From positions 2,666,001-2,730,000 of the forward strand of contig NZ_CP087723.1 of NCBI RefSeq assembly GCF_024972735.1: a DNA stretch of 64,000 nt, given 5' to 3'. The position numbers and the translations under genes were made by a program. Within the stretch, counting starts at the first letter, position 1. Every line of letters begins with the position of its first letter. Shown one piece after another: positions 9,888-64,000 of this stretch. This stretch comes from Halalkaliarchaeum sp. AArc-CO (GTDB lineage: Archaea; Halobacteriota; Halobacteria; Halobacteriales; Haloferacaceae). A model generated the notes under the pieces. That model was not told the DNA's origin. It saw only the letters and a program-made list of their open reading frames with translations, and did not search any database.

Positions 9888-9995
9888 CTCGAAAGCCCCC
9901 GGCGTCTCGACTCCCGGGATCGCGGCTGCGCTCCTCGCTTCGCTGCGGTGCTTGCCGGATCCGGGTTCGCCGAGACGCCGGCCCCTTTCAGTCCC
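9888..9995 (-). repeat. H1 structured repeat, copy 1
   Basis: Read on the minus strand: GGGACTGAAAGGGGC, then stem arm CCGGCGTCTCG (9971-9981), apical part containing GCACCGCAGCG and GAGGAGCGCA, the second stem arm CGAGACGCCGG (9899-9909), then GGGGCTTTCGAG. GAAAG and CTTTC can pair outside a GGG/GGG internal loop. Copies 2 (13174-13281) and 3 (21002-21109) are nearly identical; copies 4-6 keep the outer and apical parts but have a different, again complementary, stem. Confidence 0.85.
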
Positions 9996-10090
9996 ACCCG
10001 GCCGGTCGGACGGGCCAGCCATCGCTTATCTGAACGCTGTTTGTCCGAGTTGTTCGAGGGGGTATACGGCAGGCCGACCAACGGACGCTC

Positions 10091-11034: not shown

Positions 11035-11178
11035 GTTTTCGGGACTCGTTCGTTTCTCTCCGGTCACGGGATGGGTGTACTTCAAGATCGCATGATCGCC
11101 GCGCGTTCGGTCGTGCCGATATCCGAACTTCAGTAGCACGGAAACGATTTCCTCGCCGGAGAAATCTCGAGAACCCAT
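11035..11178 (-). pseudogene. hicA toxin gene, truncated after codon 44
   Basis: The first 44 codons (from ATG at 11178) match the HicA at 20096-20380: MGSRDFSGEEIVSVL, then RHDRTRGDHAILKY with the catalytic His, ending at GEKRT. The frame then passes into unrelated sequence (SPENWLL and a stop). The missing 3' third of hicA is not here; a matching piece lies at 12969-13026. The protein lacks the final strand and helix of the double-stranded-RNA-binding-like fold and is probably inactive. Confidence 0.8.
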
Positions 11179-11630: not shown

Positions 11631-11780
11631 TCCCGAACACGACCCTCTTGCACACGACCCTCTTGCACATAACCCTCTTGCACACGACCGTCCTCTCGAA
11701 TGTTTCCGATATCGACCAGCTGTGGGTGGTTGCAGGACTCTCCGGTATCTGTACGGTTCCGATCGTTCGCGAGGAACTCA
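11622..11780 (+). pseudogene. PIN-domain toxin 5' relic carrying a tandem 15-bp expansion
   Basis: The bases match the first 50 codons of the PIN toxin at 22365-22871 (SNPSVLNTTVLSN...DQLWVVAGLSGICTVPIVREEL) but the NTTVLSN part is expanded by three extra 15-bp units, each near ACACGACCCTCTTGC (11636-11681). The match stops at REEL, where the 3' end of the ArsR-like gene on the other strand begins. No full-length product is possible. Confidence 0.75.
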
Positions 11781-12188: not shown

Positions 12189-12286
12189 CGTGCGTCACGC
12201 TACGAGTCGAATACGCTTAGTCGTTATCAAGCCGAGAGTTCTCGAAAACACCGCTTTTTATATACCTCTGCCGGATAGGAGCAGCC
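12189..12286 (+). promoter_or_regulatory. Divergent promoter with strong TATA box
   Basis: TTTTTATATA at 12253-12262 lies 25-34 bases before the ATG at 12287, a textbook archaeal TATA position for a nearly leaderless transcript. A GGAG (12277-12280) could serve as a ribosome-binding site if there is a short leader. Confidence 0.55.
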
Positions 12287-12907: not shown

Positions 12908-13125
12908 GATCGGAGCGCACACCGCCGCGGGTGCTGCAACGCGTCCCCCGACGTCGATCGGTGGACGACGCGTGAAAATCGTTCGCTCCACACTGGTCGG
13001 CGATACTCTGGAGCGTCCCGGTTCGAACGCGACGGAGCGAGCCGACTGATCGGGATCACGGAGGACGTCGAATCGGAACGGGACGCGATCCGTTCGACGG
13101 ACGTCTTCGGTTTCGGGGGGAACAG
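12908..13125. pseudogene. Fused relics: hicA 3' end (minus) and DUF433/DUF5615 tail (plus)
   Basis: Bases 12969-13026 equal the 3' part of the intact hicA at 20167-20225 (minus strand), i.e. the piece missing from the truncated hicA 1.8 kb to the left. It is joined at GGTTCGAACGCG to the C-terminal codons of DUF433 (NATERAD) and then to the DUF5615 relic (13040-13125). The joint lies in sequence common to both parents, which suggests recombination at short homology. Confidence 0.65.
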
Positions 13126-13173
13126 GGAGTGTTCGGTCGGTCGAGAACAGTGGCTCGACCACTGTACGAACAG

Positions 13174-13281
13174 CTCGAAAGCCCCCGGCGTCTCGACTCC
13201 CGGGATCGCGGCTGCGCTCCTCGCTTCGCTGCGGTGCTTGCCGGATCCGGGTTCGCCGAGACGCCGGCCCCTTTCAGTCCC
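13174..13281 (-). repeat. H1 structured repeat, copy 2
   Basis: Nearly identical to copy 1 (9888-9995), with the same stem arms CCGGCGTCTCG/CGAGACGCCGG and outer GAAAG/CTTTC. As in copy 1 it follows a DUF433/DUF5615 relic, and the match continues past the element to about 13322 (CCATCGCTTATCTGAAC). Confidence 0.85.
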
Positions 13282-13397
13282 ACCCGGCCGGTCGGACGGG
13301 CCAGCCATCGCTTATCTGAACACGACCTCCGAGTACGTCTCCCGGTCTCGGAGGCCGTCGAGGAACCGAGATCTCGCGATCTCGTTCGAATACCGAG

Positions 13398-13943
13398 TCA
13401 CGGGAGTTCCTCGGTCATCGCAACGAGGTCCTCTTCGGTCCGCCAGCGGTACAATCGCCCGTGCCGGTCGAACAGTTCGAAGACGCCATCTTGCATCCAG
13501 CCGAACGGATGCTCCTCCTCGTACTCTCGTTTGAGGACGTGACTTTTGGAGAAATACTCGATCGTCCCGACCAGCAGACCCTGTTCGACGAGGAAGTCGC
13601 TCGGTTCCTTCTCGGCGACGCCGACGAGGTGCGTCACGACGTCGGCGATCAGGCAGAACTTCTGGATACTGTTGTCCCACTCGCCGCGGATGTCGACCAT
13701 CCGGAAGGCGTAGGCGTCCTGCCGGCGGTTGAGGCGATCGACCACTAGATTCAGCCGCCGGATCGGCTCCCGGTCGTAGTTCCCGAGGACGAAGTACGAT
13801 CGATCGTTCTCGTATACGGGCGTCAGTTCGCTCAGGGCGTGGAGGATCTCCTCGTTGTCCGCCAGCGAGATCTCCTCCTCGCCGAGCTGCTCTTTGGCGC
13901 TCGTGAGAACTTCCTCGGGGACGGGCGACTCCTCGTCGGACAT
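13398..13943 (-). CDS. Uncharacterised protein, possible TIR/nucleoside-deoxyribosyltransferase-like fold
   Basis: This 181-residue protein (ATG at 13943) has no family I recognise. The sequence SYFVLGNYD (strand), RRLNLVVDRLNRRQ (helix), YAFRMVDI (strand), NSIQKFCLIADVVTHLVGVAEKEPSDFLVEQGLLVG (helix-strand-helix, with an AD-x-V...S-x-L-x-E-x-G pattern) is what one sees in TIR-like and nucleoside-2-deoxyribosyltransferase-like Rossmann proteins. The C-terminal half (EYEEEHPFGWMQDGVFELFDRHGRLYRW) is of unknown type. It is divergent, 129 bp away, from a PadR-like regulator with dyads before it. The arrangement mirrors 11778-12907. A frame in the same phase extends upstream to 14534 but runs antisense through the regulator gene and is not credible. 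Confidence 0.6.
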   Translation of the reverse strand: MSDEESPVPEEVLTSAKEQLGEEEISLADNEEILHALSELTPVYENDRSYFVLGNYDREPIRRLNLVVDRLNRRQDAYAFRMVDIRGEWDNSIQKFCLIADVVTHLVGVAEKEPSDFLVEQGLLVGTIEYFSKSHVLKREYEEEHPFGWMQDGVFELFDRHGRLYRWRTEEDLVAMTEELP

Positions 13944-14008
13944 GCACTGCCGTTCTCGGAACCGCAAGATATGATTTATGGAGTAATTCACCGAGTTATT
14001 CGTCCTTC

Positions 14009-14043
14009 TGTTTACGTTAGCGTAATTTACCCGAGGGTAAACT
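14009..14043. promoter_or_regulatory. Two adjacent dyads, candidate operator of the PadR-like gene
   Basis: TTACG-TTAG-CGTAA (14012-14025) is followed at once by TTTACCC-GA-GGGTAAA (14026-14041), 32 bases before the regulator's ATG at 14073. Both are near-perfect inverted repeats of a size that suits a winged-helix dimer, so autoregulation by the PadR-like protein, and control of the divergent gene, is likely. Confidence 0.55.
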
Positions 14044-14072
14044 ACTTGACGTCGGGGGGTGTACCGTGGCGT

Positions 14073-14486
14073 ATGAGCACCGACGTGGGGACCGCCGAGG
14101 GGACGGAAACCCGCGAACTCGTCCACTTCGTGACCCAGCGGACGCGGTTCGCGCTCGTCAACAACATCCTCCAGCACCCCGAGCAGTTGCCCTCGATGTA
14201 CGAACTCGAGGAACTCAACCCCAGCGTGAGCGACGCCACCGTCTACAAGCACGTCCAGAAGCTGATCGACGCTGGCATCGTGAGGGAGGTCGCACTCGAC
14301 GACGACCAGCGCCGGCAGGGCTATCCCTGGAAGTTCTACGGACTCACGGAGGAGGGACTGGCGTTCCTCGAGGAACACAACCTGCTCGCCGCAGAGGAGA
14401 CCCTCCAGAGGATCTACGAGAGCATCTCCGACAAGCCCGAGAAAATGGTGAAATACGAGAACGCCCCCCGTCCCGAGGTCGAGTAA
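14073..14486 (+). CDS. PadR-like winged-helix transcriptional regulator
   Basis: This 137-residue protein has a winged-helix domain: ELVHFVTQRTRFALVNNILQHPEQLPSMYELEELNPSVSDATVYKHVQKLIDAGIVREV, followed by a wing with YPWKFYGLTEEGLAFLEEHNLL and a C-terminal helix, as in PadR/ArsR-type haloarchaeal regulators. The start at 14073 is preferred because two dyads end 31 bases before it. It is divergent from the uncharacterised gene at 13398-13943 and probably regulates it. The stop is followed at once by a DUF433 relic. Confidence 0.8.
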   Translation: MSTDVGTAEGTETRELVHFVTQRTRFALVNNILQHPEQLPSMYELEELNPSVSDATVYKHVQKLIDAGIVREVALDDDQRRQGYPWKFYGLTEEGLAFLEEHNLLAAEETLQRIYESISDKPEKMVKYENAPRPEVE

Positions 14487-14735
14487 CCCACCGCATCGTG
14501 GCCCGCGACGAGGAGATCCGGTCGGGATCGCCACGGATCGGCGGCACCCGGATCACCGTCCTCGACGTCGAGTACGACGTCTCGATGGCCGAGCTGTTCA
14601 CGGCGCTTTCGTACGACGACGATCACCGGGAGGCGTTCGCCGACCGGGAGCAGGAGTTCGCGACCGCACGGCAGAACGGAGAGCGTCGAACCCGATCGCT
14701 GCTCGCGGACGGTTCGAACGCCACAACGACGGTGC
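14487..14735 (+). pseudogene. DUF433 antitoxin relic with internal deletion
   Basis: The codons match DUF433 at 21205-21504 (RDEEIRSGSPRI-GTRITVLDV, then YDVSMAELFTALS and the C-terminal half) but about 17 codons between ITVLD and EYDVSM are missing, and the first codons (VTHRIVARDEE) come from the C-terminus of a wHTH gene like that at 60186-60701. The two genes share ATCGT-CGCGAC bases there, so the joint probably arose at microhomology. Confidence 0.75.
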
Positions 14736-14758
14736 TCAACTCGTCGCTGCACGGATCC

Positions 14759-15481
14759 TCACTGCGCATCGCCGAGCACCTCCGCGGCGTCGGCACCTCC
14801 CAACGCCACGTCTTTGACGCGCTCTAACGCGTCGCTGTCTTCGATCACGATTCCCTCGGCCAGCACTTCGTCGATTCCGTCGTCTGCCTCGCCGTGGCTC
14901 ACCGCCGACTCCACGGACTCGACCAACACCTCGAACTCGTAGCGGTCACCCGGCTCGCCGAATCGCTTCTCGCCGAGGTCGACGGCGATATCGGTCGCCG
15001 TGCGTCGTGCCTGCAGGATGTCGTCGCTGTCCTCGACCAGCAGCCAGACGTCGATGTCGCTGCGGCGGTCGGCCTCACCGCGTGCGACGCTCCCGAACAC
15101 GAGCAGGGCCGAAAACGACGGTACCTCCCGGCGAGCCCGTTCGACAAATTCTCGCACCGGTTCACGGAACTCGTCTTGGGGCAGCGCGAACAACGGCTCC
15201 TCGGGAATCATCACCCGCTCGCGGTTCAGGCGCACGCTCCGGCTGCGCCCGCTCTCGTCGACCCGGACGAGCCCCAGCCCCTGGAGCAGGTCGACCGCAC
15301 GCGTCGTCGTCTTCGAGCCGTTGTCCGTGATCTCGCGAAGCTGGCGCACGGTGAACTCCCTGAACGGGTTGCAGGTTAGGAGTTCGAGGACGTCTTCCAT
15401 CGCCACGTACCGGAACACTTGTTCTTCCCCGAACGGGAAGGAGATGTGCAATCCAACTCTTTGATCACTTTTAGTGCCCAT
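14759..15481 (-). CDS. Nucleotidyltransferase with N-terminal winged-helix domain
   Basis: This 240-residue protein (ATG at 15481; a frame continues upstream to 15541 but crosses the operator) has a winged-helix region at about 28-95 (MEDVLELLTCNPFREFTVRQLREITDNGSKTTTRAVDLLQGLGLV) and a polymerase-beta-like nucleotidyltransferase domain with the catalytic signature GSVARGEADRRSDIDVW (130-146; GS then DxD). Such HTH-NTase fusions are antitoxin-like, and may modify a toxin or RNA by adding nucleotides. It is the third gene after MntA and HepT on the same strand. Two dyads overlap its start codon, so it probably represses itself through the HTH. Confidence 0.78.
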   Translation of the reverse strand: MGTKSDQRVGLHISFPFGEEQVFRYVAMEDVLELLTCNPFREFTVRQLREITDNGSKTTTRAVDLLQGLGLVRVDESGRSRSVRLNRERVMIPEEPLFALPQDEFREPVREFVERARREVPSFSALLVFGSVARGEADRRSDIDVWLLVEDSDDILQARRTATDIAVDLGEKRFGEPGDRYEFEVLVESVESAVSHGEADDGIDEVLAEGIVIEDSDALERVKDVALGGADAAEVLGDAQ

Positions 15482-15500
15482 GGACACTTTTAGTGTCCAG
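15464..15500. promoter_or_regulatory. Pair of dyads overlapping the nucleotidyltransferase start
   Basis: CACTTTTAGTG (15466-15476) and GGACACT-TTT-AGTGTCC (15482-15498, perfect) are two tandem inverted repeats 16 bp apart that flank the start codon at 15479-15481. An exact copy of the pair stands without its gene at 9509-9541. The spacing suits cooperative binding of two wHTH dimers. Confidence 0.6.
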
Positions 15501-15555
15501 TAGCAGTAAAACGTTTTGTCAGCCCTCTCACTCGAATACATCGCTACAACGGTCC

Positions 15556-16008
15556 CTATCCGTCGTCAGTAGCTGCCTCGTCGAGATACTTTCGAACTTC
15601 GCGACAGAAGATCGGGAACCATCGCAAATCCTCCTGGAGATGGGAATACACTTGTTCGTCGTCGAGGTCGCCCCCGTAATTGTGTGCGAGGACGTTTCGG
15701 AACCCGGCAGCCTCCCCCATTCGAGTCGCAGTTTCCGTCGAGAGGGCGCCCAGTCGTTCGAGACGGTGAAATTTGTCGGCGTTGGTGGCGGGCATTTCCT
15801 CCTCCGAATCCCGGATGAGCAACTCGGCGATGTCGATGCACGCCTCGATAGCGACCTGGAACTCCCGTTCGACGATCGCCTGCTGCTCTCGATCGGCGAG
15901 GTACTCCTCCCGTTCGAGCGACTGTTTCCGGGCGAGTAGCCCCGTCGCATCCGCCACGAACTCGACCTTGTCGACGATGCGCTCGATCGTCTCCGTATCA
16001 GACGTCAA
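15556..16008 (-). CDS. hepT: HepT-like (HEPN) ribonuclease toxin
   Basis: This protein (150 residues from the TTG at 16008; an ATG at 16029 gives 157) is an all-alpha HEPN protein. The catalytic RX4HXY motif is intact: RNVLAHNY near residue 110. In the characterised MntA-HepT system of bacteria HepT is an RNase that is silenced when MntA adenylylates the tyrosine of this motif. It overlaps the upstream mntA by 11 bp (32 bp with the longer start), so the two are coupled. The nucleotidyltransferase gene 74 bp downstream may be a third member. Confidence 0.85.
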   Translation of the reverse strand: MTSDTETIERIVDKVEFVADATGLLARKQSLEREEYLADREQQAIVEREFQVAIEACIDIAELLIRDSEEEMPATNADKFHRLERLGALSTETATRMGEAAGFRNVLAHNYGGDLDDEQVYSHLQEDLRWFPIFCREVRKYLDEAATDDG

Positions 16009-16438
16009 CGGCCTCCTCCATCTCGGCAAGCAGCGCGTCGAACCGGGCGAGTCGGTCCCCGTTCTCGTCGTCGGGCGTCCGATCGGCGAACCGACGTCGG
16101 AGTCGGTCGGCCCGATCGGGACTCCCGACCAGAAGCACCCCGCGCTCGAGGGCCGCCTTCCCGACCGCCGGCCGAACTCCGTCGAGATCGACCACGTCGA
16201 CGTCGTCGGTCCCCAGCTCCCGGGTCAGCTCGACGATCACGTCGAGACGCGCCCGCCGTCTGTCGTCGGACGACAGCTCCGCGTCGAATTCGACCGCGAC
16301 GTCGACGTCGCTGTGGGCGTGTGTCGAACCGGTCACCTGCGAGCCGAAGAGGACGCCCAGCCGGATCGGGTGTCCCTCGAGCACGCCGCGGATCGCATCG
16401 ACGTCGATCCCGTCCACGTCGTCGATCGCAGGGGCCAT
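15998..16438 (-). CDS. mntA: MntA-like minimal nucleotidyltransferase antitoxin
   Basis: This 146-residue protein has the nucleotidyltransferase signature GSQVTGSTHAHSDVDVAVEF (GS at 32-33, DVD at 44-46), the core of MntA antitoxins that AMPylate HepT. I start it at the ATG at 16438; an upstream start at 16462 is possible, but on the minus strand a TTTTATG box lies about 30 bases before 16438, which fits a leaderless transcript. It is followed by hepT in the usual order. Confidence 0.85.
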   Translation of the reverse strand: MAPAIDDVDGIDVDAIRGVLEGHPIRLGVLFGSQVTGSTHAHSDVDVAVEFDAELSSDDRRRARLDVIVELTRELGTDDVDVVDLDGVRPAVGKAALERGVLLVGSPDRADRLRRRFADRTPDDENGDRLARFDALLAEMEEAVDV

Positions 16439-16512
16439 ACCAGTAGGTAGCCTCGCCATCACATAAAAGATGGCTCGCGTCGACGACGATCACAGTAATT
16501 TCGAGGCGGAAA

Positions 16513-16524
16513 CCCACGGCTTTA
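16513..16524. repeat. Left half of an IS605-type hairpin, split by an IS
   Basis: CCCACGGC followed by TTTA here, and TTTA followed by GCCGTGGG at 17910-17921, would form one hairpin (CCCACGGC-TTTA-GCCGTGGG) if the 1385-bp IS between them were removed. Such hairpins mark the ends of IS200/IS605-type tnpB elements. The four-base loop became the target duplication. Confidence 0.75.
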
Positions 16525-17909
16525 CAGTAGTTGCTGATTTGGACGAGTCGAAAACTCGTAGAGGTGCTTCATCGATCAGTTCGGTCTGTAATTTCGGTAG
16601 AGTTGAGCTGAGAGACTAGGGTAAAATAGCGACGGCCCTTGTCATGAGTTAGAGACAGCAGTCTTGCCAGTAGACAGGGGCGTGCTGACCTGGGCCGGCC
16701 GCCCAGGTCAGCCGCCACAGACTGCGTTACCCGTACGGAACAACACCGAGAAACTCCCGAAAGATCGCTGTCGGAATTGATTGGTCATCTTCTGTTTGGT
16801 GGTGTGGTGTCAAGAGCAGATTCACCAGCACCCAGAGATTGTACAGTGCGACAGCGAACAAAAAGTAAAACAGCCGGACAGAGAACGTCGGTGACGTTGT
16901 CTTGGGGAGAAACTCACCGACTTTCCGGTAGGAGGTTTCGATCCCCCAGCGTCGGCGGTAGGCTTCGGCCAACGCCTCCGCGAACTCGACCGCGTCGGGG
17001 TCGAGTTCGCTGGTGGTCACCAGACAGAAGTGGTCGTCCTCTCGCGTCCGGTGTGGGACGACGACCAACCGAACATCCACCCGGCACGTCGGTGGATTCG
17101 ACCGCCGCATCTCGTACTCTGTGATGAACGTGTCTGCGTCGTGTTCCTCAATCCGGCGTTGCACGCCGCGATTTGTTGGTGCACGCATCACCAGATTAAC
17201 GTCTAGTTCGTCGAAGACCTTGACCAACCGCACGCGGTAGAGTTCGCGGTCGCAGTAGACCTGATTGAGCGTCACGTACTCGCGTGCGGTTGAGACGAGT
17301 TGGCGGACTACGGCCGCCAACTCGTCGGTACTACCGTCTTCGAGAACTGCCCAATCGAGCGTAAAGCGGACATCTGGATCGACGATGCAGATGGTGGCAA
17401 ACTTGTATGCGAGATTCGTTCCCTGGTCTGGGTTCGTGTTCGCCACTTTCGGCGTTTTTTCCTCACCGTAGAACAGCCAATCGTGGATGTCGATTGCCAC
17501 GTCAACGGGCTGTTCGAACACGCGAGTCCGAACAGCGTGCGTAAGCATCTGTTTGCGGACGGCATCGAACTGATCGTCGATGCCGTCCGCGTCAAGATCA
17601 CGAAGATTGTACAACAGTGCCCGAGCGAGCGGATTTCGTGCGTCTGTCTCTAAAGAAACTTCCTCACCACGAGCACACTGGTATGCTTTCGCGCCAGCAT
17701 TGGCAAATTCGTTGTCGAAGGCGATTCGAGAGAGGACTGGCTCGAAGTCCTCTCTCGTGTAAGTTGCATTCGACGCGACACCGAAGTCGATCTCGGGAAA
17801 CAACAACGATGATGCTGCTGACGTGACCTGCTTTGCCTCCCTTGTATCGACCATACTGAAAAAAACGAACCCAGTCAAGTCGGCTCTTTGGCTACTTCAG
17901 CAACTACTG
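16525..17909 (-). mobile_element. DDE (IS4-superfamily) insertion sequence, complete
   Basis: The element is 1385 bp. Its terminal inverted repeat begins CAGTAGTTGCTGA at both ends (16525 on the plus strand, 17909 on the minus strand) and it is flanked by the direct repeat TTTA (16521-16524 and 17910-17913). It carries one transposase gene. The target was the loop of an IS605-type hairpin. The sequence between the left end and the transposase stop (16525-16726) has a GC-rich dyad near 16700 (GACCTGGGC...GCCCAGGTC) that may shield the element from outside transcription. Confidence 0.85.
16727..17854 (-). CDS. IS4-superfamily DDE transposase
   Basis: This protein (375 residues from the ATG at 17854; 383 from 17878) has the features of a DDE transposase: the first acidic motif in VDVAIDIHDWLFYG, a later DREL segment, and the C-terminal YRRRWGIETSYRKVGEF, which is the Y-(2)-R-(3)-E-(n)-K signature of IS4-type enzymes. 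It is followed by hydrophobic helices (LFYFLFAVALYNLWVLVNLLL) as in ISH-type haloarchaeal transposases. The frame is intact and the element ends are intact, so it may still move. I do not recognise the exact ISfinder name. Confidence 0.85.
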   Translation of the reverse strand: MVDTREAKQVTSAASSLLFPEIDFGVASNATYTREDFEPVLSRIAFDNEFANAGAKAYQCARGEEVSLETDARNPLARALLYNLRDLDADGIDDQFDAVRKQMLTHAVRTRVFEQPVDVAIDIHDWLFYGEEKTPKVANTNPDQGTNLAYKFATICIVDPDVRFTLDWAVLEDGSTDELAAVVRQLVSTAREYVTLNQVYCDRELYRVRLVKVFDELDVNLVMRAPTNRGVQRRIEEHDADTFITEYEMRRSNPPTCRVDVRLVVVPHRTREDDHFCLVTTSELDPDAVEFAEALAEAYRRRWGIETSYRKVGEFLPKTTSPTFSVRLFYFLFAVALYNLWVLVNLLLTPHHQTEDDQSIPTAIFREFLGVVPYG

Positions 17910-17913
17910 TTTA

Positions 17914-19283
17914 GCCGTGGGAGGAAGCCGACATGGTAGGAAACAGCCACCGAGAAGCGGCAGTCTGACTCCCCCATGTTACCGTAGCACTTATGAATCT
18001 ATTCCTCTACATATGAAGTATGGCGGAGGTGCGTCGCACAGTCGTCGTCAAACTCGACATAGACGACAGCGACGCAACTCTCCTCCACGAAACCGTCGAG
18101 GAGTACCTGTGGGCGTGCAACTACGTCGTCCGCGACGCATGGCAGGACGACTACAAGCCCACTTCTAAGACGGAACTTCACGACCGGACGTACGCCGACG
18201 TGCGCGAACAGACGCGCCTCCAGGCGAACCTCGTTCAATCCGCACGCAACCGAGCCGCCGAAGCCATCAAGGGCGTCGTCGCCCGGTGGAAACGCGGCAA
18301 GAAAGCGTCGCAACCACACTTCACGACGCCCTCGGTTCGCTACGACAAACGGAGTGCGACGTTCTACGACGACCGAGTGTCTCTCTCCACGGTGAACGGA
18401 CGCATCGAAGCCGAGTACGTCCTGCCGCCGGAAGGCGAGAACCCGCAGACGAAGTACCTCCGAAACGGCGAGTACGAGGTCACGGGTGCGACGCTCCAGT
18501 ACCGCGAGACGACGGACACCTTTTTCCTCCACATCGGAACAAAGGCCGACGTGGAGTCCGAGATACCGGACCAAGGCGACGCCGAGCACAGCACAGTCCT
18601 CGGCGTCGACCTCGGTATCGAACAGATTGCCGTCACGTCAACTGGGATGTTCTGGAGCGGCGATTACCTCAACCACCGTCGGCGGGAGTACGAGCGGGTG
18701 CGGGGCGACCTGCAACGGACAGGCACGGAGTCGGCCCATCGAACCATCGAACGCATGGGCGACCGAGAGACGCGGTGGGTAGAAGACTACCTCCACCGCA
18801 TCTCGAAAGCCATCGTCCACGAAGCCGTCGCGCACGACTGCGAGACGATCGCGTTCGAGGAGTTGACGGACATCCGCGAGCGTATTCCGGGTGCAAAGAA
18901 GTTCCATGCGTGGGCATTTCGGCGTCTGTACGACTACGTGGCGTACAAGGCCGAAGCGGAAGGTATCGAAGTGACGCAGGTAGACCCCGCGTACACATCC
19001 AAGCGGTGTTCGAAGTGCGGGACGACGTTGGACGAGAACCGATCGTCACAAGCGAAGTTCTGTTGCCGGAAGTGCGGCTACGAAGTCCACGCAGACTACA
19101 ACGCGGCGAAGAACATCGGCTTCAAACTACTCCGTGCGGGGCAAAAGTCTCCGCACGGAGGGGCGACACGTCACCTCGCCCTGAAGTCGGGGACGCTGAA
19201 CGTGAATGGCGGCTACTCGCCTGCCACCCAGTAGGGTCGGCCAGAACGGGAGTCCACCGACAAGCCCACGACTTAGTCGTGGG
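17914..19283 (+). mobile_element. IS200/IS605-type element with tnpB only
   Basis: A tnpB gene without tnpA. A hairpin CCCACGAC-TTA-GTCGTGGG (19265-19283) stands 30 bases after the stop and probably marks the right end. The left limit is uncertain: the hairpin split by the IS at 16513-17921 is either the left end of this element or the right end of an earlier one. Confidence 0.6.
18020..19234 (+). CDS. tnpB: TnpB-family RNA-guided endonuclease
   Basis: This 404-residue protein has the three RuvC catalytic positions D197 (VLGVDLG), E280/E281 (IAFEEL) and D359 (ADYNAAKN), with a zinc ribbon between the last two (C330-x2-C333 and C349-x2-C352). TnpB proteins use an RNA from the element's own right end to cut DNA, which keeps the element in the genome. 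The N-terminal WED/REC-like part starts MAEVRRTVVVKLDIDD. All key residues are present, so the nuclease should be active. No tnpA is nearby, so movement would need one in trans. Confidence 0.9.
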   Translation: MAEVRRTVVVKLDIDDSDATLLHETVEEYLWACNYVVRDAWQDDYKPTSKTELHDRTYADVREQTRLQANLVQSARNRAAEAIKGVVARWKRGKKASQPHFTTPSVRYDKRSATFYDDRVSLSTVNGRIEAEYVLPPEGENPQTKYLRNGEYEVTGATLQYRETTDTFFLHIGTKADVESEIPDQGDAEHSTVLGVDLGIEQIAVTSTGMFWSGDYLNHRRREYERVRGDLQRTGTESAHRTIERMGDRETRWVEDYLHRISKAIVHEAVAHDCETIAFEELTDIRERIPGAKKFHAWAFRRLYDYVAYKAEAEGIEVTQVDPAYTSKRCSKCGTTLDENRSSQAKFCCRKCGYEVHADYNAAKNIGFKLLRAGQKSPHGGATRHLALKSGTLNVNGGYSPATQ

Positions 19284-19290
19284 TTGGTGA
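19130..19290 (+). ncRNA. Predicted omega/right-end RNA overlapping the tnpB 3' end
   Basis: In TnpB elements the guide RNA comes from the end of tnpB and its downstream sequence; overlapping sense transcripts have been reported for halophile tnpB genes. Here the candidate covers the last codons, the hairpin at 19265-19283 and ends near 19290, where the guide would continue into flanking DNA (the nucleotidyltransferase gene on the minus strand). This is a prediction by position. Confidence 0.45.
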
Positions 19291-19626
19291 CACGTAGACG
19301 ACGTCGTCGGTAACGCGGGATTCGATCCGCGGTTTCAGCGACCCCTTCGTGACGAGATCGACGTCGACGCCGAGCCGCTCCGTCAGTTCGTTCTCCAGGC
19401 GAACGAGATCAAGCAGCGTCACCGGTCGCTCGAACGCGACGAGCACGTCGAGATCGCTGTCGGGTCGCTGTTCCCCCCGAGCGTACGAGCCGAAGATCCC
19501 GAGCTCGCTGATGGGGTACTCCTCCTGGAGCTCCGGCTTGAGCGCAGCGAGCGCCGCCCGGATCTCCTCGTCTGGAGGCATGTTCGACCGTTCGACGTCG
19601 ACCGGTAATTGTATTGCGGTCGTCAC
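19273..19626 (-). CDS. Minimal nucleotidyltransferase (MNT), C-terminus rewritten by the tnpB element
   Basis: This 117-residue protein (an internal ATG at codon 16 is an alternative start) has GSYARGEQRPDSDLDVLV (46-63), the nucleotidyltransferase signature. Archaeal relatives normally end soon after DDVVYV; here the frame runs into the right end of the tnpB element, and SPTHD plus the stop are encoded by the element's hairpin. The enzyme core is thus intact. Its usual HepT partner would lie downstream, where the tnpB element now is, so the partner seems lost. Confidence 0.75.
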   Translation of the reverse strand: MTTAIQLPVDVERSNMPPDEEIRAALAALKPELQEEYPISELGIFGSYARGEQRPDSDLDVLVAFERPVTLLDLVRLENELTERLGVDVDLVTKGSLKPRIESRVTDDVVYVSPTHD

Positions 19627-19651
19627 TCCCTGAACCGGCCACGGGAGGTGA

Positions 19652-19858
19652 TCACAGCCGTTCCTCGCGAGCGTCGTCGACGACGTCGCTCATCGGTTTC
19701 CCCTCGGCAGCGGCGGCCCGGAGGTCCCGAAGATCGGATCCTTCGTCGGTGGCATGTTCGTCGAGGAACGCCTCCAGCCGCCGACGGAGTCCCCCCGTGC
19801 GCGAGGGACGCAAGAGGTGTCTTCCGAGTCCGGCGACGTCCTCGTCTCCGTTGCTCAT
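19652..19858 (-). CDS. Small protein of unknown function upstream of the MNT gene
   Basis: A 68-codon frame (MSNGDEDVAGLGRHLL...DLRDLRAAAAEGKPMSDVVDDAREERL) 25 bp before the nucleotidyltransferase gene and on the same strand. Acidic helices and the spacing make it a possible antitoxin-like partner. I recognise no family and codon use alone supports it, so it may also be a relic. Confidence 0.4.
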   Translation of the reverse strand: MSNGDEDVAGLGRHLLRPSRTGGLRRRLEAFLDEHATDEGSDLRDLRAAAAEGKPMSDVVDDAREERL

Positions 19859-19884
19859 GGCGGATTCTCGGCGTTCCCTCGGTT

Positions 19885-20000
19885 ATAATAACTTCCCCGA
19901 CGGGTCGGTGACTCACCAGATCGTGGCCCGCGAGCAGGAGATTCCGCCCCTGGAGGCTGGAATCATTCTGGAGGCGCTGCGGCCCGTCGTCGAGGGCTGA
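19885..20000 (+). pseudogene. wHTH regulator, C-terminal relic
   Basis: The frame DGSVTHQIVAREQEIPPLEAGIILEALRPVVEG and its stop equal, with few changes, the C-terminus of the wHTH protein at 60186-60701 (DGSVTHHIMAREQEISPLEAG...RPVVED). The first 140 codons are missing. Confidence 0.75.
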
Positions 20001-20007
20001 GTTCGAA

Positions 20008-20076
20008 TGGCTGCCGACAGAGAACTCGTGTTCGTCGACTCCTCGGTGCCCATCACCGGTGTTCGTCGATCCAACA
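20008..20076 (+). pseudogene. PIN-like toxin, N-terminal relic cut by an H2 palindrome
   Basis: Immediately after the wHTH relic a frame begins MAADRELVFVDSSVPITGV, the start of a PIN-type protein (FVDSS with the first catalytic Asp). It is cut at 20076 by the H2 palindrome. The pair was probably a wHTH antitoxin with its toxin. Confidence 0.5.
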
Positions 20077-20157
20077 TACTGACAGTTGTAGGCCGTTACC
20101 GGGCGATCGGCGGGCCGGGTGGCCGATCGACCGGTAAATCACTACAACTGCCAGTAT
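20076..20157. repeat. H2 palindromic repeat, copy 2 (82 bp)
   Basis: Outer arms ATACTGACAGTTGTAG (20076-20091) and CTACAACTGCCAGTAT (20142-20157) pair with one mismatch; inner arms contain ACCGGGCGATCGGC and GGCCGATCGACCGGT. It has the same length and core as copy 1 but a different outer arm. On its left it cuts a PIN relic and on its right it supplies the last codons of hicA. Confidence 0.85.
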
Positions 20158-20380
20158 CACACCACGCGTGAAAATCGTTCGCTCCACACTGGTCGGCGAT
20201 ACTCTGGAGCGTCCCGGTTCGAACGCGGTCGTGAAGCGGAACCGTGACCGTTCGTTTCTCCCCGGTCACGGGATGGGTGTACTTCAAGATCGCATGATCG
20301 CCGCGTGTTCGGTCGTGCCGACATCCGAACTTCTGTAGCACGGAAACGATTTCCTCGCCGGAGAAATCTCGAGAACCCAT
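20096..20380 (-). CDS. hicA: HicA-type mRNA interferase toxin (intact core)
   Basis: This protein (94 residues) has the complete HicA fold: MGSRDFSGEEIVSVLQKF, CRHDRTRGDHAILKY with the catalytic His in GDHAILKY, then RTVTVPLHDRVRTGTLQSIADQCG. After about residue 70 (NDFHAW) the frame enters the H2 palindrome, which adds about 24 foreign residues before a stop at 20096. HicA binds and cuts mRNA; the added tail might or might not harm it. The start follows the hicB stop directly. Confidence 0.8.
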   Translation of the reverse strand: MGSRDFSGEEIVSVLQKFGCRHDRTRGDHAILKYTHPVTGEKRTVTVPLHDRVRTGTLQSIADQCGANDFHAWCDTGSCSDLPVDRPPGPPIAR

Positions 20381-20596
20381 CTATCGGCGTTCGAACCACG
20401 GCGCGTCGGGTTCGGGAGCCGACGTGTCCTCGGCCCGGGCCCGCCTGGTTGCCGCCACCGCCTGGTCGAGGTTGGCGAGGGCCTCCTCTCGCGATGGCCC
20501 CTGGCTCGCAACGCCCACGTCCTCGTCGATGGCCGACCACCACCCATCGTCCTCCTCGACGAGACGAATTTCGCGACCGGTGCTCATACGGATCAC
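20381..20596 (-). CDS. hicB: HicB-type antitoxin (copy 2)
   Basis: A 71-residue HicB (REIRLVEEDDGWWSAIDEDVGVASQGPSREEALANLDQAVAATRRARAED), the partner of the hicA that follows it without a gap. About three residues differ from copy 1 at 11179-11394. About 590 bp around it (20240-20830) repeat the locus at 11040-11620 almost exactly. Confidence 0.87.
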   Translation of the reverse strand: MIRMSTGREIRLVEEDDGWWSAIDEDVGVASQGPSREEALANLDQAVAATRRARAEDTSAPEPDAPWFERR

Positions 20597-20689
20597 TAGG
20601 TCCGAATATGGGATAAGCGTTCGGTCCGGGATTTCTCGATTGCAGGCGACAGCCGACCCTCCGACGGTCGACGCAACAGGAAGACCTCC

Positions 20690-20960
20690 ACGTGGTCGCC
20701 GGCGAGGACGACGTCTCGATGGCCGAACTGTTCACGGTGCTTTCGTACTACTACGATCATCGGGAGGCGTTCGCCGACCGGGAACGGGAGTTCGCGACCG
20801 CACGGCAGAACGGAGAGCGTCGAACCCGATCGCTGCTCGCGGACAGTTCGAACGCGACGGAGCGAGCCGACTGATCGGGATCACGGTGGACGCCGAATCG
20901 GAACGGGACGTGATCCGTTCGACGGACGGCTTCGGTTTCGGTGGTGTGAACGGGGAGTGT
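20690..20960 (+). pseudogene. DUF433 C-terminal relic followed by DUF5615 relic
   Basis: VVAGEDDVSMAELFTVLSYYYDHREAF...NATERAD (20692-20874) is the C-terminal two thirds of DUF433; the following 85 bases are the decayed DUF5615 segment (ITVDAESERDVIRSTDGFGFGG). The N-terminal part and promoter are replaced by the hicB upstream region. Confidence 0.75.
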
Positions 20961-21001
20961 TCGGTCGGTCGAGAACAGTGGCTCGGTCACGTTACAGACA
21001 T

Positions 21002-21109
21002 CTCGAAAGCCCCCGGCGTCTCGACTCCCGGGATCGCGGCTGCGCTCCTCGCTTCGCTGCGGTGCTTACCGGATCCGGGTTCGCCGAGACGCCGGCCCCT
21101 TTCAGTCCC
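21002..21109 (-). repeat. H1 structured repeat, copy 3
   Basis: Same stem subtype as copies 1 and 2. Its 3' flank (CATCGCTTATCTGAACGC and on to 21190) is shared with copy 1 and forms the promoter region of the DUF433 gene, with GGTTTATACGG near 21173-21183 as a possible TATA box. Confidence 0.85.
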
Positions 21110-21204
21110 GCCCGGCCGGTCGGACGGACCACCCATCGCTTATCTGAACGCTGTTTGTCCGAGTTGTTCGAGGGTTTATACGGCAGGCCGACCAACGGAC
21201 GCTC

Positions 21205-21504
21205 ATGACGAGGATCGTCCGCGACGAGGAGATCCGGTCGGGATCGCCACGGATCGACGGCACCCGGATCACCGTCCTCGACGTCAAGCGTCGAGTCATC
21301 GACGAGCAGGAGGACCCCCACGTCGTCGCCGGCGAGTACGACGTCTCGATGGCCGAGCTGTTCACGGCGCTTTCGTACTACTACGATCACCGGGAGGCGT
21401 TCGCCGACCGGGAACGGGAGTTCGCGACCGCACGGCAGAACGGAGAGCGTCGAACCCGATCGCTGCTCGCGGACGGTTCGAACGCGACTGAGCGAGCCGA
21501 CTGA
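21205..21504 (+). CDS. DUF433 (COG2442) family antitoxin
   Basis: A 99-residue protein and the only full-length DUF433 in the first island: MTRIVRDEEIRSGSPRIDGTRITVLDVKRRV, with the conserved GxPRIxGTRI, then SMAELFTALSYYYDHREAFADREREF, the YYYDH segment typical of the family. The family has a short HTH-like region and is usually the antitoxin of a DUF5615 PIN-like toxin, which follows here. At least five partial copies of this gene lie in the window. Confidence 0.8.
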   Translation: MTRIVRDEEIRSGSPRIDGTRITVLDVKRRVIDEQEDPHVVAGEYDVSMAELFTALSYYYDHREAFADREREFATARQNGERRTRSLLADGSNATERAD

Positions 21505-21507
21505 TAA

Positions 21508-21831
21508 CTGCGAATTCTCGCCGATACGAACGTCCCCGACGAGTACGTGTCCGCCCTCCGGGGGGACGGCCACGAGGTCGTCTACAGCCGCGACGTCTCT
21601 CCGTTGGGCCCGGAAGCGACCGACGACGCGATCACGGAGTACGCCGAATCGGAACGGTACGCGGTACTTTCGACGGACGTCTCCGATTTCGGAGGCAGAA
21701 ACGCCGACGTCCCGATACTCGTCGCACCACAGGACATGTCCGGAAGCGACGTCCGCGTCGCCGTCGCCCACCTGGAAGCACTCCCGTTCGACCCCGCACA
21801 GACGGACCCCATCTGGCTGTCCGGCCTCTGA
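21508..21831 (+). pseudogene. DUF5615 PIN-like toxin, start codon apparently lost
   Basis: The frame reads LRILADTNVPDEYVSALRGDGHEVVYSRDV...VLSTDVSDFGGRNADVPILVAPQDMSG to the stop at 21831: a full-length DUF5615 protein with the N-terminal catalytic ADTNVP and the second acidic site STDVSDFGG. But the first codon in frame after the DUF433 stop is CTG (21508), directly after TAA; no ATG, GTG or TTG exists before the catalytic Asp. The first GTG (21547) would remove it. Either CTG is used or the gene has lost its start. Confidence 0.65.
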
Positions 21832-21999
21832 TACTGATTCTCGGCCGTAACAGAACGATCCGTGGGCCGGGTGGCCGATCGACGGGTGATAACTTCCCCG
21901 TCGTCGATCGGTCGGTGACTCACCGTATCGTGGCCCGCGACCGGGAGACCCTCCGACACAGTTCATAAATAGTATGAAGACGTAGCTTCGGGCGGACAG
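21832..21999. other. Relic-bearing gap before the UPF0175-PIN pair
   Basis: Bases 21832-21900 are a decayed H2 palindrome (TACTGATTCTCGG...GGGTGGCCGATCGACGGG). Bases 21910-21945 (GTGACTCACCGTATCGTGGCC) are again the C-terminal codons of the wHTH family at 60186. AGTTCATAAATAGTATGAAG (21961-21980) holds the probable TATA box of the next operon. Confidence 0.5.
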
Positions 22000-22368
22000 A
22001 TGGCACGAATCACCGGCTCCTACCCGGACGATCTCGACCTCCTCATCGAGGGTGCCGTCGAGGCTGGCGTGTTCGGGGGCAAGAGCGACGCGTTGAGAGA
22101 GTTCGTTCGTGAATACTTCGAAGACCACGAAAACGAGCGCATTGCCGCTGCAGTTGCCCTCTACGAACGCGAACGGATCACGCTCGGTGACGCTGCGCGA
22201 CTTGCCGACGTCGATCGATGGACGATGCGTGACATCCTCCGGGAGCACGGGGTCGAACTCCGATTCGGTCTCGTCGACGAGGACGACGCAGCCGACGAGG
22301 CCGCCGCAGCGAGCGAACTCGAATTCAGTGACGAGGACTCGGACGACGAGGAGACGCGTGCGAAATGA
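22000..22368 (+). CDS. UPF0175-family antitoxin
   Basis: This 122-residue protein has an N-terminal RHH-like segment (GSYPDDLDLLIEGAVEAGVFGGKSDALREFVREYFEDH) and a UPF0175 core (AVALYERERITLGDAARLADVDRWTMRDILREHGVELRFG). UPF0175 proteins are antitoxins of PIN (DUF3368) toxins. The acidic tail (DEDDAADEAAAASELEFSDEDSDDEE) probably binds the toxin. Its stop overlaps the toxin start (ATGA). Confidence 0.83.
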   Translation: MARITGSYPDDLDLLIEGAVEAGVFGGKSDALREFVREYFEDHENERIAAAVALYERERITLGDAARLADVDRWTMRDILREHGVELRFGLVDEDDAADEAAAASELEFSDEDSDDEETRAK

Positions 22369-22871
22369 CAGGTGACGGCGCTCCGTCGAACCCGAGCGTC
22401 CTGAACACGACCGTCCTCTCGAATTTCGCCTACGTCGACCAGCTGTGGGTGGTTGCAGGACTCTCCGGAATCTGTACGGTTCCGATCGTTCGCGAGGAAC
22501 TCGAAAACGGCGTCGATGACCATCCGTATCTCCGGTCAGCGCTGGATGCACTCGACGACCAGATTCCAGTCGCAACGGTTTCGGACGCAGTCGCAAACAG
22601 GGAAGCGATCGTCAGTGACCATCTCGATCCCGGGGAGGCACAGGCGTTCGCCCTGGCGGACGCACGTGACGGTCGACTGCTGACCGACGACGGCGATGCC
22701 CGGTCGTTCGCGAAAGACCAGGGCGTGACCGTCGTCGGGTCGGTCGGCGTCCTGTTGGCTGCAATCGACGCCGGAAAGATCGACGAACCAACCGCTGACG
22801 AGTGGCTGTCGACCTGGATCGACGAGATCGGCTACTACGTTCCGTACCGAACAATCGGAGAGTATCGGTGA
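22365..22871 (+). CDS. PIN-domain (DUF3368-type) toxin
   Basis: This 168-residue nuclease has the PIN acidic residues in order: NTTVLSNFAYVDQL (in place of the more usual DTS-x-L), VREEL, HLDPGEAQAFALA and RLLTDDGDARSFA. DUF3368 proteins cut RNA and pair with UPF0175. The first motif reads N-T-T rather than D-[ST]-[ST]; this is common in the haloarchaeal branch. A broken copy of its 5' end is at 11622-11780. Confidence 0.82.
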   Translation: MTGDGAPSNPSVLNTTVLSNFAYVDQLWVVAGLSGICTVPIVREELENGVDDHPYLRSALDALDDQIPVATVSDAVANREAIVSDHLDPGEAQAFALADARDGRLLTDDGDARSFAKDQGVTVVGSVGVLLAAIDAGKIDEPTADEWLSTWIDEIGYYVPYRTIGEYR

Positions 22872-46087: not shown

Positions 46088-46591
46088 TTAGACGTTAGCT
46101 TCTACTGTATTTGGCACTGTAAATTCACGAAGGACGGATGACCGATCACCAGATTCCCACGTAAGGCTCACGGTTGCTCCCTCTGAGACAAGGGGATCGC
46201 CGTTTTCAACCCCACTATCGTGGTCCACAGTAATTCCCACAACGTTGCCTGCACTTATGGTATCACCTGCGCCATTGTCCACGTCGAATTCATCCACATT
46301 ATCTGAGTTGTCATTATTTGCAACACTCACTCCGAGCGCATCAAACTCAACTGAATCCCCTCCCTGATGAGTGAATTCCATGAATCGTTCTTCATCATCC
46401 ACGCTCTCATAGTCAGCAACGAGTTCTCCTTCGAACTGCGAATTCGGCGCCGTGTCCCCTACCTGATCACCGAGACCCAACACGAATGTGCCAATAACAG
46501 CCGCCAAGATTACTGTTATGGCAACCATCAATATGACGCCGATAACGGGCGATACAGCATCTTTATCTTCGGCAAACGTTTTCAATTGCAT
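46088..46591 (-). CDS. Archaeal type IV pilin, N-terminal-domain protein
   Basis: This 167-residue pilin-like protein begins [50 protein letters not shown]. The prepilin signal and hydrophobic assembly helix are almost identical to the other two pilins here, while the exposed part ([21 protein letters not shown]...[19 protein letters not shown]) differs. It would be cut by PibD and join an adhesion pilus. Confidence 0.88.
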
Positions 46592-47352: not shown

Positions 47353-47817
47353 TTAATCCGAGTACTCAACGTCTATCGATTTAAGAATCGATGAGGAATC
47401 ACCTGACTGCCAGACAAGTCGAATTGACGCTTCAGCCTCGCCACTAGTCTGATCAGTCAAGTCAGCGGTAAAGCTATCCCCTGCTGATAACGACTCCGGA
47501 GCTGGGCCTGTCAGCCCTGTCACATCATCATGGTCTTCTACCGTCACAACATCCGTATCGGATGACACAACAGTAAGCGTGTCGGCGTCAACACTGTCGC
47601 CACCATTGTGCGTGAACGTCACTTCCCCAGGGTCAACAGGTTCATCAGCATTTGCATCCCAATTCGCATTCGGCGCTGTGTCCCCGACCTGGTCACCCAG
47701 ACCGAGCACGAACGTCCCGATGACGGCTGCGAGAATCACCGTAATCGCAACCATCAGGATAACGCCGATGACGGGCGATACTGCCTCTCTGTCCTCGAAA
47801 AACGCTTTCAATTTCAT
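47353..47817 (-). CDS. Archaeal type IV pilin, N-terminal-domain protein
   Basis: A 154-residue pilin beginning [50 protein letters not shown], then a variable acidic domain ending [23 protein letters not shown]. The end motif W-x-SGD-x-SS-[IV]-L is shared by all three pilins of the window, so they are paralogues with variable middles, consistent with pili of different adhesive properties. Confidence 0.88.
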
Positions 47818-48259: not shown

Positions 48260-48373
48260 GGGACTGAAAGGGGCGAGTCGCTGGAGGAAGACGGCTGACG
48301 GAAGCACCGCAGCGAACGACGTGAGCGAGGAGCGCACCGAAGCCCTCGACTCCAGCGACTCGGGGCTTTCGAG
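48260..48373 (+). repeat. H1 structured repeat, copy 4 (second stem subtype)
   Basis: GGGACTGAAAGGGG, stem arm CGAGTCGCTGGAG (48274-48286), apical part with GCACCGCAGCGAAC and GTGAGCGAGGAGCGCA, stem arm CTCCAGCGACTCG (48350-48362), GGGCTTTCGAG. The 13-bp stem is perfect. Compared with copies 1-3 the outer and apical parts are conserved but both stem arms are exchanged together. Confidence 0.88.
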
Positions 48374-53838: not shown

Positions 53839-53952
53839 GGGACTGAAAGGGGCGAGTCGCTGGAGGAAGACGGCTGACGGAAGCACCGCAGCGAACGGAG
53901 TGAGCGAGGAGCGCACCGAAGCCCTCGACTCCAGCGACTCGGGGCTTTCGAG
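53839..53952 (+). repeat. H1 structured repeat, copy 5
   Basis: Identical in form to copy 4, with the same perfect CGAGTCGCTGGAG/CTCCAGCGACTCG stem; the apical part reads GCGAACGGAGTGAGCGAGG. It begins the second long direct repeat. Confidence 0.88.
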
Positions 53953-54574: not shown

Positions 54575-56305
54575 ATGCAACTCACCGAACAGTTCCACAT
54601 CCCCGACGAGCATCACGAGGCTTGCGACCGCCTCACCACACTCGTCCAGCAACACACACAGCGCCTCCTCGACACTGAATACTGGACTGACACGCATCTC
54701 GACGCTATCAGCGACCACACAGGCCAGTCCTACACCTACATCCGCGACGACGACTCTGACGCCTTCGAAGACGTTGAAGAGTACGTCTACAGTCGATTCA
54801 AACGATGTGTCTACCACCGCGTCACGCACATCCTCGACGCCCACACCGACGAGTATCAGGCGTTCCAGTTCGTGACCGACACCGTTGCCGAGCGCAAGAT
54901 TCGACGCATCGGCTGGCACAGACTCCGCCAACGGTTGTTCGATGAAAACTCACCATACATCAACTGGCGCGTACTGGAGTCTGTCGTCGAGCAACTCAAC
55001 ACCTACTACGACCAGCACGGACACTTCCCCGAAAAGTACACGGAACTCGTCGAGACGCCCGAACCCAACGGCACACTACCCTACGCACCCGATAAGGGCG
55101 ATTACCACATCCACGAACTAGCAGTCGAAGACGATGAACTCCGCCTCGTGCTGAACGCGCCAGACTCGCTTTCACCGGAGAGCTACCACGACTGGACGAA
55201 CCACGAACTCCGCTTCCCGACCCATTCCCGAGTTAACGAGATGCTCGAAGCGGGAGACGTGAAAGCCCCAACATTGCACGCTTCCGAGCATGGCTACACC
55301 CTCGACGTGCCTGTTTCTGTGCCCGAGCAGGAAACAGAGACAGTTGCCGACCGCGTGTTAGCGGTCGATCTCGGCGTCAAGAAACAGGCCACGGCGGTCG
55401 TTCTTGACACCGGCGACGAGACACACGAGCAGGTGACGCCGCCACAGTTCATCGACCATCCAGCGAAGGACAAACTGTTCCGGGTGAAAGCCGACGCCGA
55501 AGGCATCAACGACCGCCTCGCAGAACTCCGCAGACAGGGGAAAGCACACACGGAACGGTTCGATCACTTGCTCTGTGAGTACCGCCAGACGCGGCGAAAA
55601 GAACGCCGCCTTCGTGAGCAAATTCAACACGACGTGGCGAACCAGTTGGTGTGGGCAGCCGCCGAGAACGGCTGTGAAACCATCGTGTTCGAGTCCCTCG
55701 GCCAGTTTGACGCAGACGATACAAGTGGGGCAGTCGCGTGGTCGATTTCCTCGTGGGCACGGGGAGAACTGCTCGACCACGTCGAGTACAAGGCCGGGTT
55801 GCTCGGAATCGAGTTTGCGACGGTGAATCCGTGGGGCACTTCGCGGTACTGTCCGCGATGCGGTGAGCGTGGAGAGACGGTAAACGCACCGAACGATCAC
55901 ACGGAGTGTCGTCACGGTGGACATTTCCACTGCCCCGGGTGTGGCTACGAGTGTGATCGTGACGTGGTTGGGGCGGTGAACGTCGGACGGAAACACATCG
56001 ATGCGTGCAAGATGGAGACGGCGAACCCCGCTGAGTATATCTCGACGGGGAACCACGCCAGCTTTCCATCACGCCACGCGGGGTGTGCCCGTTCTGCTGG
56101 CGTTCAGTCCGCGACCGACCAACAGGATCAGGCGAGCGGTCGTCAGACCCGCCTCTCTCAGCACCGTGCCCGGTCACTCACGGTGAAACCGGGTGAGGGA
56201 GACATGGGTGGACTGCACAGAAATCGCGGTAGTAACACGGGTCAGCGGCGACCCAGACGTAGTGTGACACAATCTGTCCTCGCCAGTACTACTGATTGTG
56301 GGTGA
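54575..56305 (+). CDS. TnpB-like RNA-guided nuclease of a DUF2080-associated element
   Basis: A 576-residue protein, larger than typical TnpB. RuvC positions are visible: AVDLGVKKQATAVVL (Asp near 266), ETIVFESLGQFDAD (Glu near 372) and CDRDVVGAVNVGRK (Asp near 466), with a zinc ribbon CPRCGERGE...CPGCGYEC between the last two. About 90 residues after the RuvC core (from NPAEYISTGNH) have low similarity to known TnpB and their DNA may double as guide RNA. There is no tnpA. The N-terminal 240 residues are a distinct helical domain. Confidence 0.8.
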   Translation: MQLTEQFHIPDEHHEACDRLTTLVQQHTQRLLDTEYWTDTHLDAISDHTGQSYTYIRDDDSDAFEDVEEYVYSRFKRCVYHRVTHILDAHTDEYQAFQFVTDTVAERKIRRIGWHRLRQRLFDENSPYINWRVLESVVEQLNTYYDQHGHFPEKYTELVETPEPNGTLPYAPDKGDYHIHELAVEDDELRLVLNAPDSLSPESYHDWTNHELRFPTHSRVNEMLEAGDVKAPTLHASEHGYTLDVPVSVPEQETETVADRVLAVDLGVKKQATAVVLDTGDETHEQVTPPQFIDHPAKDKLFRVKADAEGINDRLAELRRQGKAHTERFDHLLCEYRQTRRKERRLREQIQHDVANQLVWAAAENGCETIVFESLGQFDADDTSGAVAWSISSWARGELLDHVEYKAGLLGIEFATVNPWGTSRYCPRCGERGETVNAPNDHTECRHGGHFHCPGCGYECDRDVVGAVNVGRKHIDACKMETANPAEYISTGNHASFPSRHAGCARSAGVQSATDQQDQASGRQTRLSQHRARSLTVKPGEGDMGGLHRNRGSNTGQRRPRRSVTQSVLASTTDCG

Positions 56306-63900: not shown

Positions 63901-64000
63901 GGGACTGAAAGGGGCGAGTCGCTGGAGGAAGACGGCTGACGGAAACCGCAGCGAACGACGTGAGCGAGGAGCGCACCGAAGCCCTCGACTCCAGCGACTC
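63901..64000 (+). repeat. H1 structured repeat, copy 6 (runs off the window)
   Basis: GGGACTGAAAGGGGCGAGTC with the second stem subtype, apical part ACCGCAGCGAACGACGTG, ending at CTCCAGCGACTC at the window edge. Three bases of the GCACC segment are missing relative to copies 4 and 5. Confidence 0.85.

Follow-up and report, generated by a model that had tools for sequence, protein, structure and literature searches.

An order-wide family of intergenic hairpins in haloarchaea with variable but paired stems, possibly dispersed as non-autonomous mobile elements

Background

The known sequences most akin to those described here come from Haloquadratum, whose MITEs, PATEs and SMRs are presented in PMC3119063 as transposase-free repeats forming families of related copies in one species, the PATEs carrying near-terminal palindromes related to IS605 ends (PMC3119063). 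The present analysis began from a stretch of 64,000 nucleotides of Halalkaliarchaeum sp. AArc-CO (NZ_CP087723.1, positions 2,666,001 to 2,730,000), referred to below as the window. A first-pass annotation made from its sequence had singled out six copies of a structured repeat, and had proposed that base pairing of the stem is itself selected and that the repeat could be a structured RNA, a protein-binding DNA cruciform or a non-autonomous element moved by an enzyme that reads structure.

Results and discussion

The hairpin and its copies in the window

All six copies were recovered where they had been placed, three on the minus strand (9888, 13174, 21002) and three on the plus strand (48260, 53839, 63901). 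GGGACTGAAAGGGG is exact at these six sites, whereas the chance expectation at up to 2 mismatches is 0.6. The copies and their parts are:

48260..48373, plus strand: hairpin copy A1, made up of GGGACTGAAAGGGG, the 13-bp stem CGAGTCGCTGGAG/CTCCAGCGACTCG, the apex and GGGCTTTCGAG; R1 match, 120 bits
48265..48270, plus strand: 5' arm UGAAAG of the A1 outer helix, with its partner CUUUCG at 48366-48371, from the fold
48271..48273, plus strand: unpaired GGG of A1, facing GGG at 48363-48365 in a 3x3 internal loop
48274..48286 (5' arm) and 48350-48362 (3' arm), plus strand: variable 13-bp stem of A1, from the fold and covariation
53839..53952, plus strand: hairpin copy A2, which matches A1 with 96.8% identity along 405 bp from the element start
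63901..64000, plus strand: hairpin copy A3, truncated at the edge of the window and whole at G000:C2:2729897-2730015
9888..9995, minus strand: hairpin copy B1, with the stem CCGGCGTCTCGGC/GTCGAGACGCCGG
13174..13281, minus strand: hairpin copy B2
21002..21109, minus strand: hairpin copy B3
10025..10035, minus strand: GTTCAGATAAG, end motif of an IS6-family insertion sequence, upstream of B1
13311-13321 and 21139-21149, minus strand: counterparts of GTTCAGATAAG near B2 and B3

The predicted fold comprises, from the outside in, a 6-bp outer helix, a GGG/GGG 3x3 loop, the 13-bp stem, shorter inner helices and an apex conserved as AAGCACCGCAG...GAGGAGCGCAGCGAG; RNA folding z-scores of the window copies, on the strands given, range from -2.1 to -3.7. 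The earlier suggestion that GAAAG/CTTTC continues the helix beyond the GGG/GGG loop agrees with this fold, in which UGAAAG/CUUUCG forms the 6-bp outer helix around the stem. The two stem subtypes it had described are likewise present, CCGGCGTCTCGGC/GTCGAGACGCCGG in the B copies and CGAGTCGCTGGAG/CTCCAGCGACTCG in the A copies, but the stem had been drawn too short, each being 13 bp. The GGGCTTTCGAG of the copy at 63901 lies just past the window edge, and the genome holds the full copy (L007).

Within the window each subtype is a group of recent duplicates: the B copies have at least 300 bp in common at 92-94% identity, and the A copies 133-405 bp at 96-97%. As the window copies form two duplicated groups, these six alone could not prove covariation; the original case was in this respect too thin, and it is the wider family described below that upholds selection for pairing. 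The source genome has eight copies, seven of them inside or just beyond the window and one (L001) at a distance of about 130 kb, whose stem, CCGCCCTCGCAGCC, is of a third type and whose apex has an insert. The eighth copy (L008) and that at 63901 have 149 bp in common at 98.7% identity, with largely unrelated flanks.

Several other features of the window were recorded. B1-B3 are enclosed by a duplicated island (9592-22502) with genes for a PemK/MazF-like toxin, MarR and ArsR-like regulators and a DUF7509 protein, together with fragments resembling DUF433. A 60-bp repeat with CACTTTTAGTGCCCATGGACACTTTTAGTG is found at 9493-9552 and 15450-15509 (95% identity), and an open frame contains a 9-bp tandem repeat array of the GGCGACGAG/GGCGGCGAC type at 6887-7057. 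Two archaeal type IV pilin genes (Pilin_N) are located at 46088-46591 and 47353-47817, and inverted sequence related to them occurs at 5804-5975. A Cas12f-like TnpB gene (PF07282) occupies 54575-56305, its start about 620 bp downstream of A2.

Spread of the family

A strict pattern search detected copies in 14 of 60 relatives, nearly each with its own compensated stem. A covariance model trained on 19 pattern-found copies from different genomes gave matches in 24 of 36 relatives, with a maximum of 81 copies per genome, and in 234 of 293 genomes of the order. This search of haloarchaeal genomes, which the first-pass annotation had proposed as a check, brought in many further compensated stem variants. 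In a sample of 197 genomes of the phylum, 29 have a match, all from the same order, and the sampled genomes outside the order yielded no covariance-model match. The named carriers include Halobaculum, Haloparvum, Haloarcula, Natrinema, Halorussus and Haladaptatus; many complete genomes of relatives have zero copies, and a low-copy genome (G081) has 3 intact ones.

Copies are also present on haloarchaeal plasmids. The megaplasmids pJ7-1 (L230:3980-4096) and pHS2 (L231:3964-4080) share a diverged copy, CAGAAAGGGC...GAGGGCTTTC, in nearly identical form, and on both of them it adjoins the same pair of HTH and hypothetical genes with TFB and DNA-binding genes close by; similar single matches occur on other plasmids. 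A virus-borne element was rejected as an explanation, since none of the 16 fifteen-mer matches in IMG/VR fits the model better than expected by chance (best E 0.066). Neither an array nor a link to cas was observed that would favour a CRISPR-like interpretation of ACTGAAAG.

No Rfam 15 family reaches its gathering score with the hairpin, and relaxing the threshold to E 5 adds only matches of the kind expected by chance. No description of the family was found in the open literature searched, although an earlier one may exist in subscription papers or supplements, and the sequence string sought in papers gave only unrelated matches. The hairpin is thus an abundant, order-wide feature that has neither an Rfam model nor a description in the open literature searched.

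Covariation and strand-specific pairing

In the set of 19 copies, drawn from different genomes, both sides have changed at 18 of 28 pairs, 95.2% of cells are paired as against 76% in shuffled and 28-46% in slid controls, and the observed covariation score was reached by 0 of 500 shuffles; in these pairing statistics the copies are phylogenetically non-independent, and the flank conservation of pattern-found copies partly reflects the search. These figures bear out the claim that base pairing itself is selected. The 248 well-paired copies have 206 distinct 13-bp stems, almost all paired, with arms that vary together, rather than a single ancestor without stem variants. Compensation extends beyond the 13-bp stem, as the outer helix has been recoded in some lineages (UCGAAG/CUUCGG, UGGAAG/CUUCCA, UCAAAG/CUUUGG), and the GGG/GGG internal loop is retained in these variants.

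The composition of the pairs provides information on the strand involved. The 206 distinct stems contain 1045 CG, 942 GC, 315 TA and 216 AT pairs, and their 88 G.T or T.G wobbles stand against 14 A.C or C.A mispairs (p=3e-14). This excess recurs in subsets, being 47 to 5 on the contigs of named genomes and 10 to 0 in a Halorubrum-like genus. A.C and G.T arise by mirror-image transitions, and equal counts would therefore be expected if the DNA structure were symmetric or if one arm were copied from its partner. At conserved positions of the apex C>T (95/1524) and G>A (142/2282) are equally frequent, each 6.2%, so that mutation bias does not account for the excess. The surplus of G.U over A.C, taken with equal rates at the apex, indicates that it is the G-rich strand whose pairing is selected, either as RNA or as single-stranded DNA, two forms that the wobble test cannot separate, G.T being stabler than A.C in DNA too. 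The structure thus covaries and tolerates wobble pairs, as is looked for in structured RNAs.

Other aspects of stem turnover concern the route by which pairs change. Close stems often differ by double transversions (CG/GC), and the recent copies of one genome (G167) include compensated single-pair variants with no mismatched intermediate. Templated correction of one arm by the other may contribute to this turnover.

Architecture and IS6-type ends

The hairpin occurs either singly or in inverted pairs joined 5' to 5'. Its 5' foot is GGGTGG, conserved at 80-100% per base. For about 44 of 279 copies, an inverted partner is located no more than 75 nt upstream; in such pairs the 5' feet face each other across a centre of 26-38 nt with a TGRYCA-like palindrome, and some of the inverted partners are mini-hairpins without the apex.

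TGTTCAGATAAG lies upstream of some copies at a distance of about 48 nt, and its complement follows roughly 40 nt downstream of them. TGTTCAGATAAG is the end of an insertion sequence of about 685 bp that encodes an IS6-family transposase (NF033587, 185.8 bits), and the units L234 and L235 have terminal inverted repeats in common with the transposase-bearing insertion sequence. In L234 a 203-bp unit is bounded by TGTTCAGATAAG on both sides and shows the 8-bp duplication GGGCGGGC; this is the one copy with a clear target-site duplication. End motifs were found at 35 of 279 copies (about 1 in 8), compared with 3 in a swapped-position control; the B copies of the window retain the left one. Pairing is no poorer in hairpins lacking the motif: at least 12 of 13 pairs are formed in 80% of these and in 71% of the hairpins that have it. 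The unit dispersed in the Halorubrum-like genus measures about 253-260 bp.

Gain and loss at orthologous sites

One orthologous intergenic region of the Halorubrum-like genus is filled in ten species (G014, G337, G272, G078, G295, G140, G149, G246, G338, G254) and cleanly empty in five (G309, G310, G312, G319, G286), and the filled sites show exchanged stem heads. Such differences between species in the occupancy of orthologous sites imply that copies come and go, and the empty sites could represent precise deletions rather than the state before insertion. Two further observations were made at the same region: the apical part in G254 is inverted relative to the outer arms, unlike in all other species, and six species (G246, G295, G272, G078, G254, G338) carry 1-4 tandem partial units of about 60 bp, each consisting of the hairpin 3' arm and a spacer with TTATAAAT.

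Between nucS and endA, several Natrialbaceae and one Haloarcula carry a copy, which is oriented in the sense direction in every case; most genomes, including relatives of the same genus, have none at this site. The seven Natrialbaceae orthologues have mostly different stems, which are 98.6% paired with 7 pairs changed on both sides, and their covariation score is 0.464 as against 0.141 when shuffled (n=7). This indicates that the resident copies at nucS-endA are under selection for pairing.

Genomic context and candidate mobilising enzymes

Just 6 of 177 copies overlap predicted genes, as called by a simple codon-usage script that was checked on annotated plasmids and makes some errors. The gene arrangements around the copies match the background of long intergenic regions, and orientation between tandem genes is balanced (47 sense, 39 antisense); a cis-acting terminator or UTR role was rejected in the absence of enrichment by gene arrangement. 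No TATA-like AT-rich peak was found upstream of the hairpin. In 49 of 95 cases its 3' end lies 80-120 bp ahead of a downstream start codon on the same strand. The element ends just upstream of the promoter of the downstream gene, which occupies this interval, and a leader element, as the distance might suggest, was discarded on that account.

The comparison with REP elements and their associated transposases, offered in the first-pass annotation, does not hold as stated, since the Y1 transposase (Y1_Tnp, PF01797) is absent from G014 and G016, which have 81 and 70 copies; dependence on a RAYT/Y1 enzyme is thereby rejected for these two genomes. Strict dependence on IS6 fails in the same manner, with no match to its transposase in G016 or G078, each of which has at least 18 copies, and IS6 may instead have moved some lineages of the element. 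Neither a transposase nor an integrase gene recurs beside the copies among 643 neighbour proteins, the largest clusters of which are ordinary host genes.

Interpretation

Taken together, these observations are, on a somewhat better than even judgement, best read as a non-autonomous mobile hairpin, similar to REP/BIME elements or MITEs, whose single-strand fold is still selected after insertion. In this best reading the working part is the hairpin of the GGGACTGAAAGGGG strand, as RNA or single-stranded DNA; the two are about equally likely, with a slight preference for RNA. Among the options originally offered, the non-autonomous element read by its structure is thus favoured by presence and absence at orthologous sites and by inverted pairing, whereas the symmetric cruciform suffers from the six-to-one ratio of G.U to A.C.

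The main rival, which we consider rather unlikely, is a structured non-coding RNA with a host function, stand-alone or as a UTR element, that was spread by duplication and is mobile only incidentally. The tolerance of G.U on one strand would suit such an RNA, as would the compensated changes in the persisting, always sense copies at nucS-endA and the intact copies kept by low-copy genomes such as G081 with its 3; the unbiased overall orientation to genes, the AT-rich promoter that was not found upstream, the frequent presence/absence differences at orthologous sites and the many complete relatives with zero copies argue against it. The strand asymmetry of the wobbles weighs heavily on a symmetric protein-binding DNA cruciform or supercoil sink, and largely refutes it; the inverted pairs and intergenic position do recall BIMEs, but we regard this as very improbable.

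A plain IS6-type MITE, whose stem would be paired incidentally, through template switching (quasi-palindrome correction) and not through selection, is consistent with the terminal inverted repeats and 8-bp duplication of some copies, the numerous double transversions, the G167 variants compensated without a mismatched intermediate and the inverted apex of G254. It appears improbable, because such correction predicts equal G.T and A.C where 88 and 14 were observed with symmetric mutation at the apex, and would also remove the conserved GGG/GGG mismatch loop, and because most copies keep the hairpin despite missing ends. Integron attC sites are recognised as a folded single strand and have conserved feet and a variable stem. 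By analogy, the hairpin might be a recombination site folded as a single strand and used by a host tyrosine recombinase, and conserved feet with a free yet paired stem, the palindromic TGRYCA-like core of the 5'-to-5' junctions, the tandem partial units of about 60 bp on the 3' arm and the inverted apex could all be accommodated in this manner; the lack of a recurrent neighbouring integrase gene and of gene cassettes makes it quite doubtful.

Returning to the mobile hairpin with a selected fold, a trans-acting structure-reading protein might recognise the feet, internal loop and apex, and sense the stem purely as a helix, which would leave the stem sequence to drift freely. The unit would be copied by that activity or another, in some lineages possibly by an IS6 transposase acting through the terminal inverted repeats, and host selection or ongoing binding might preserve resident hairpins after the ends decay. 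Tentatively, and short of an even chance in our estimate, this could be an archaeal mobile hairpin recognised by shape via a putative protein, with the folded G-rich strand as the recognised form and each copy having its own stem. The hundreds of natural compensatory stems make recognition by shape directly testable, and the reader protein, if found, would lead either to a new structure-guided mechanism of archaeal mobility or to structured archaeal RNAs of a new class. Comparing G.U with A.C as a test of the strand involved is transferable to other prokaryotic palindromic repeats.

Comparison with known systems

REP/BIME sequences served by RAYT (TnpA-REP) resemble the present family in being intergenic, non-coding, high-copy imperfect palindromes with a conserved foot, here GGGTGG, and in forming inverted pairs. 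The GTAG/GTGG foot tag of REP might correspond to this haloarchaeal foot, a likeness seen at the level of sequence. Unlike REP/BIME, the haloarchaeal hairpin is about 114 nt long rather than 20-40, its stem is almost free within and between genomes, and several high-copy genomes lack the Y1 transposase. IS6-family MITEs are comparable to the units of about 203 bp with TGTTCAGATAAG ends, one with an 8-bp duplication; however, the end motif is limited to 35 of 279 copies, the hairpin is conserved independently of the ends, and IS6 is missing from some high-copy genomes. The similarity to integron attC, by analogy, would lie in conserved feet with a variable stem, whereas neither integrase nor cassettes are linked to the hairpin. 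With Rfam families it has in common a conserved, covarying secondary structure, but it has no gathering-score match in Rfam 15. The Haloquadratum MITEs, PATEs and SMRs come closest in kind, being likewise transposase-free haloarchaeal repeats; the hairpin family differs from them in its independence of Y1 and in its covarying stem, a feature not reported in the portions of PMC3119063 drawn on here.
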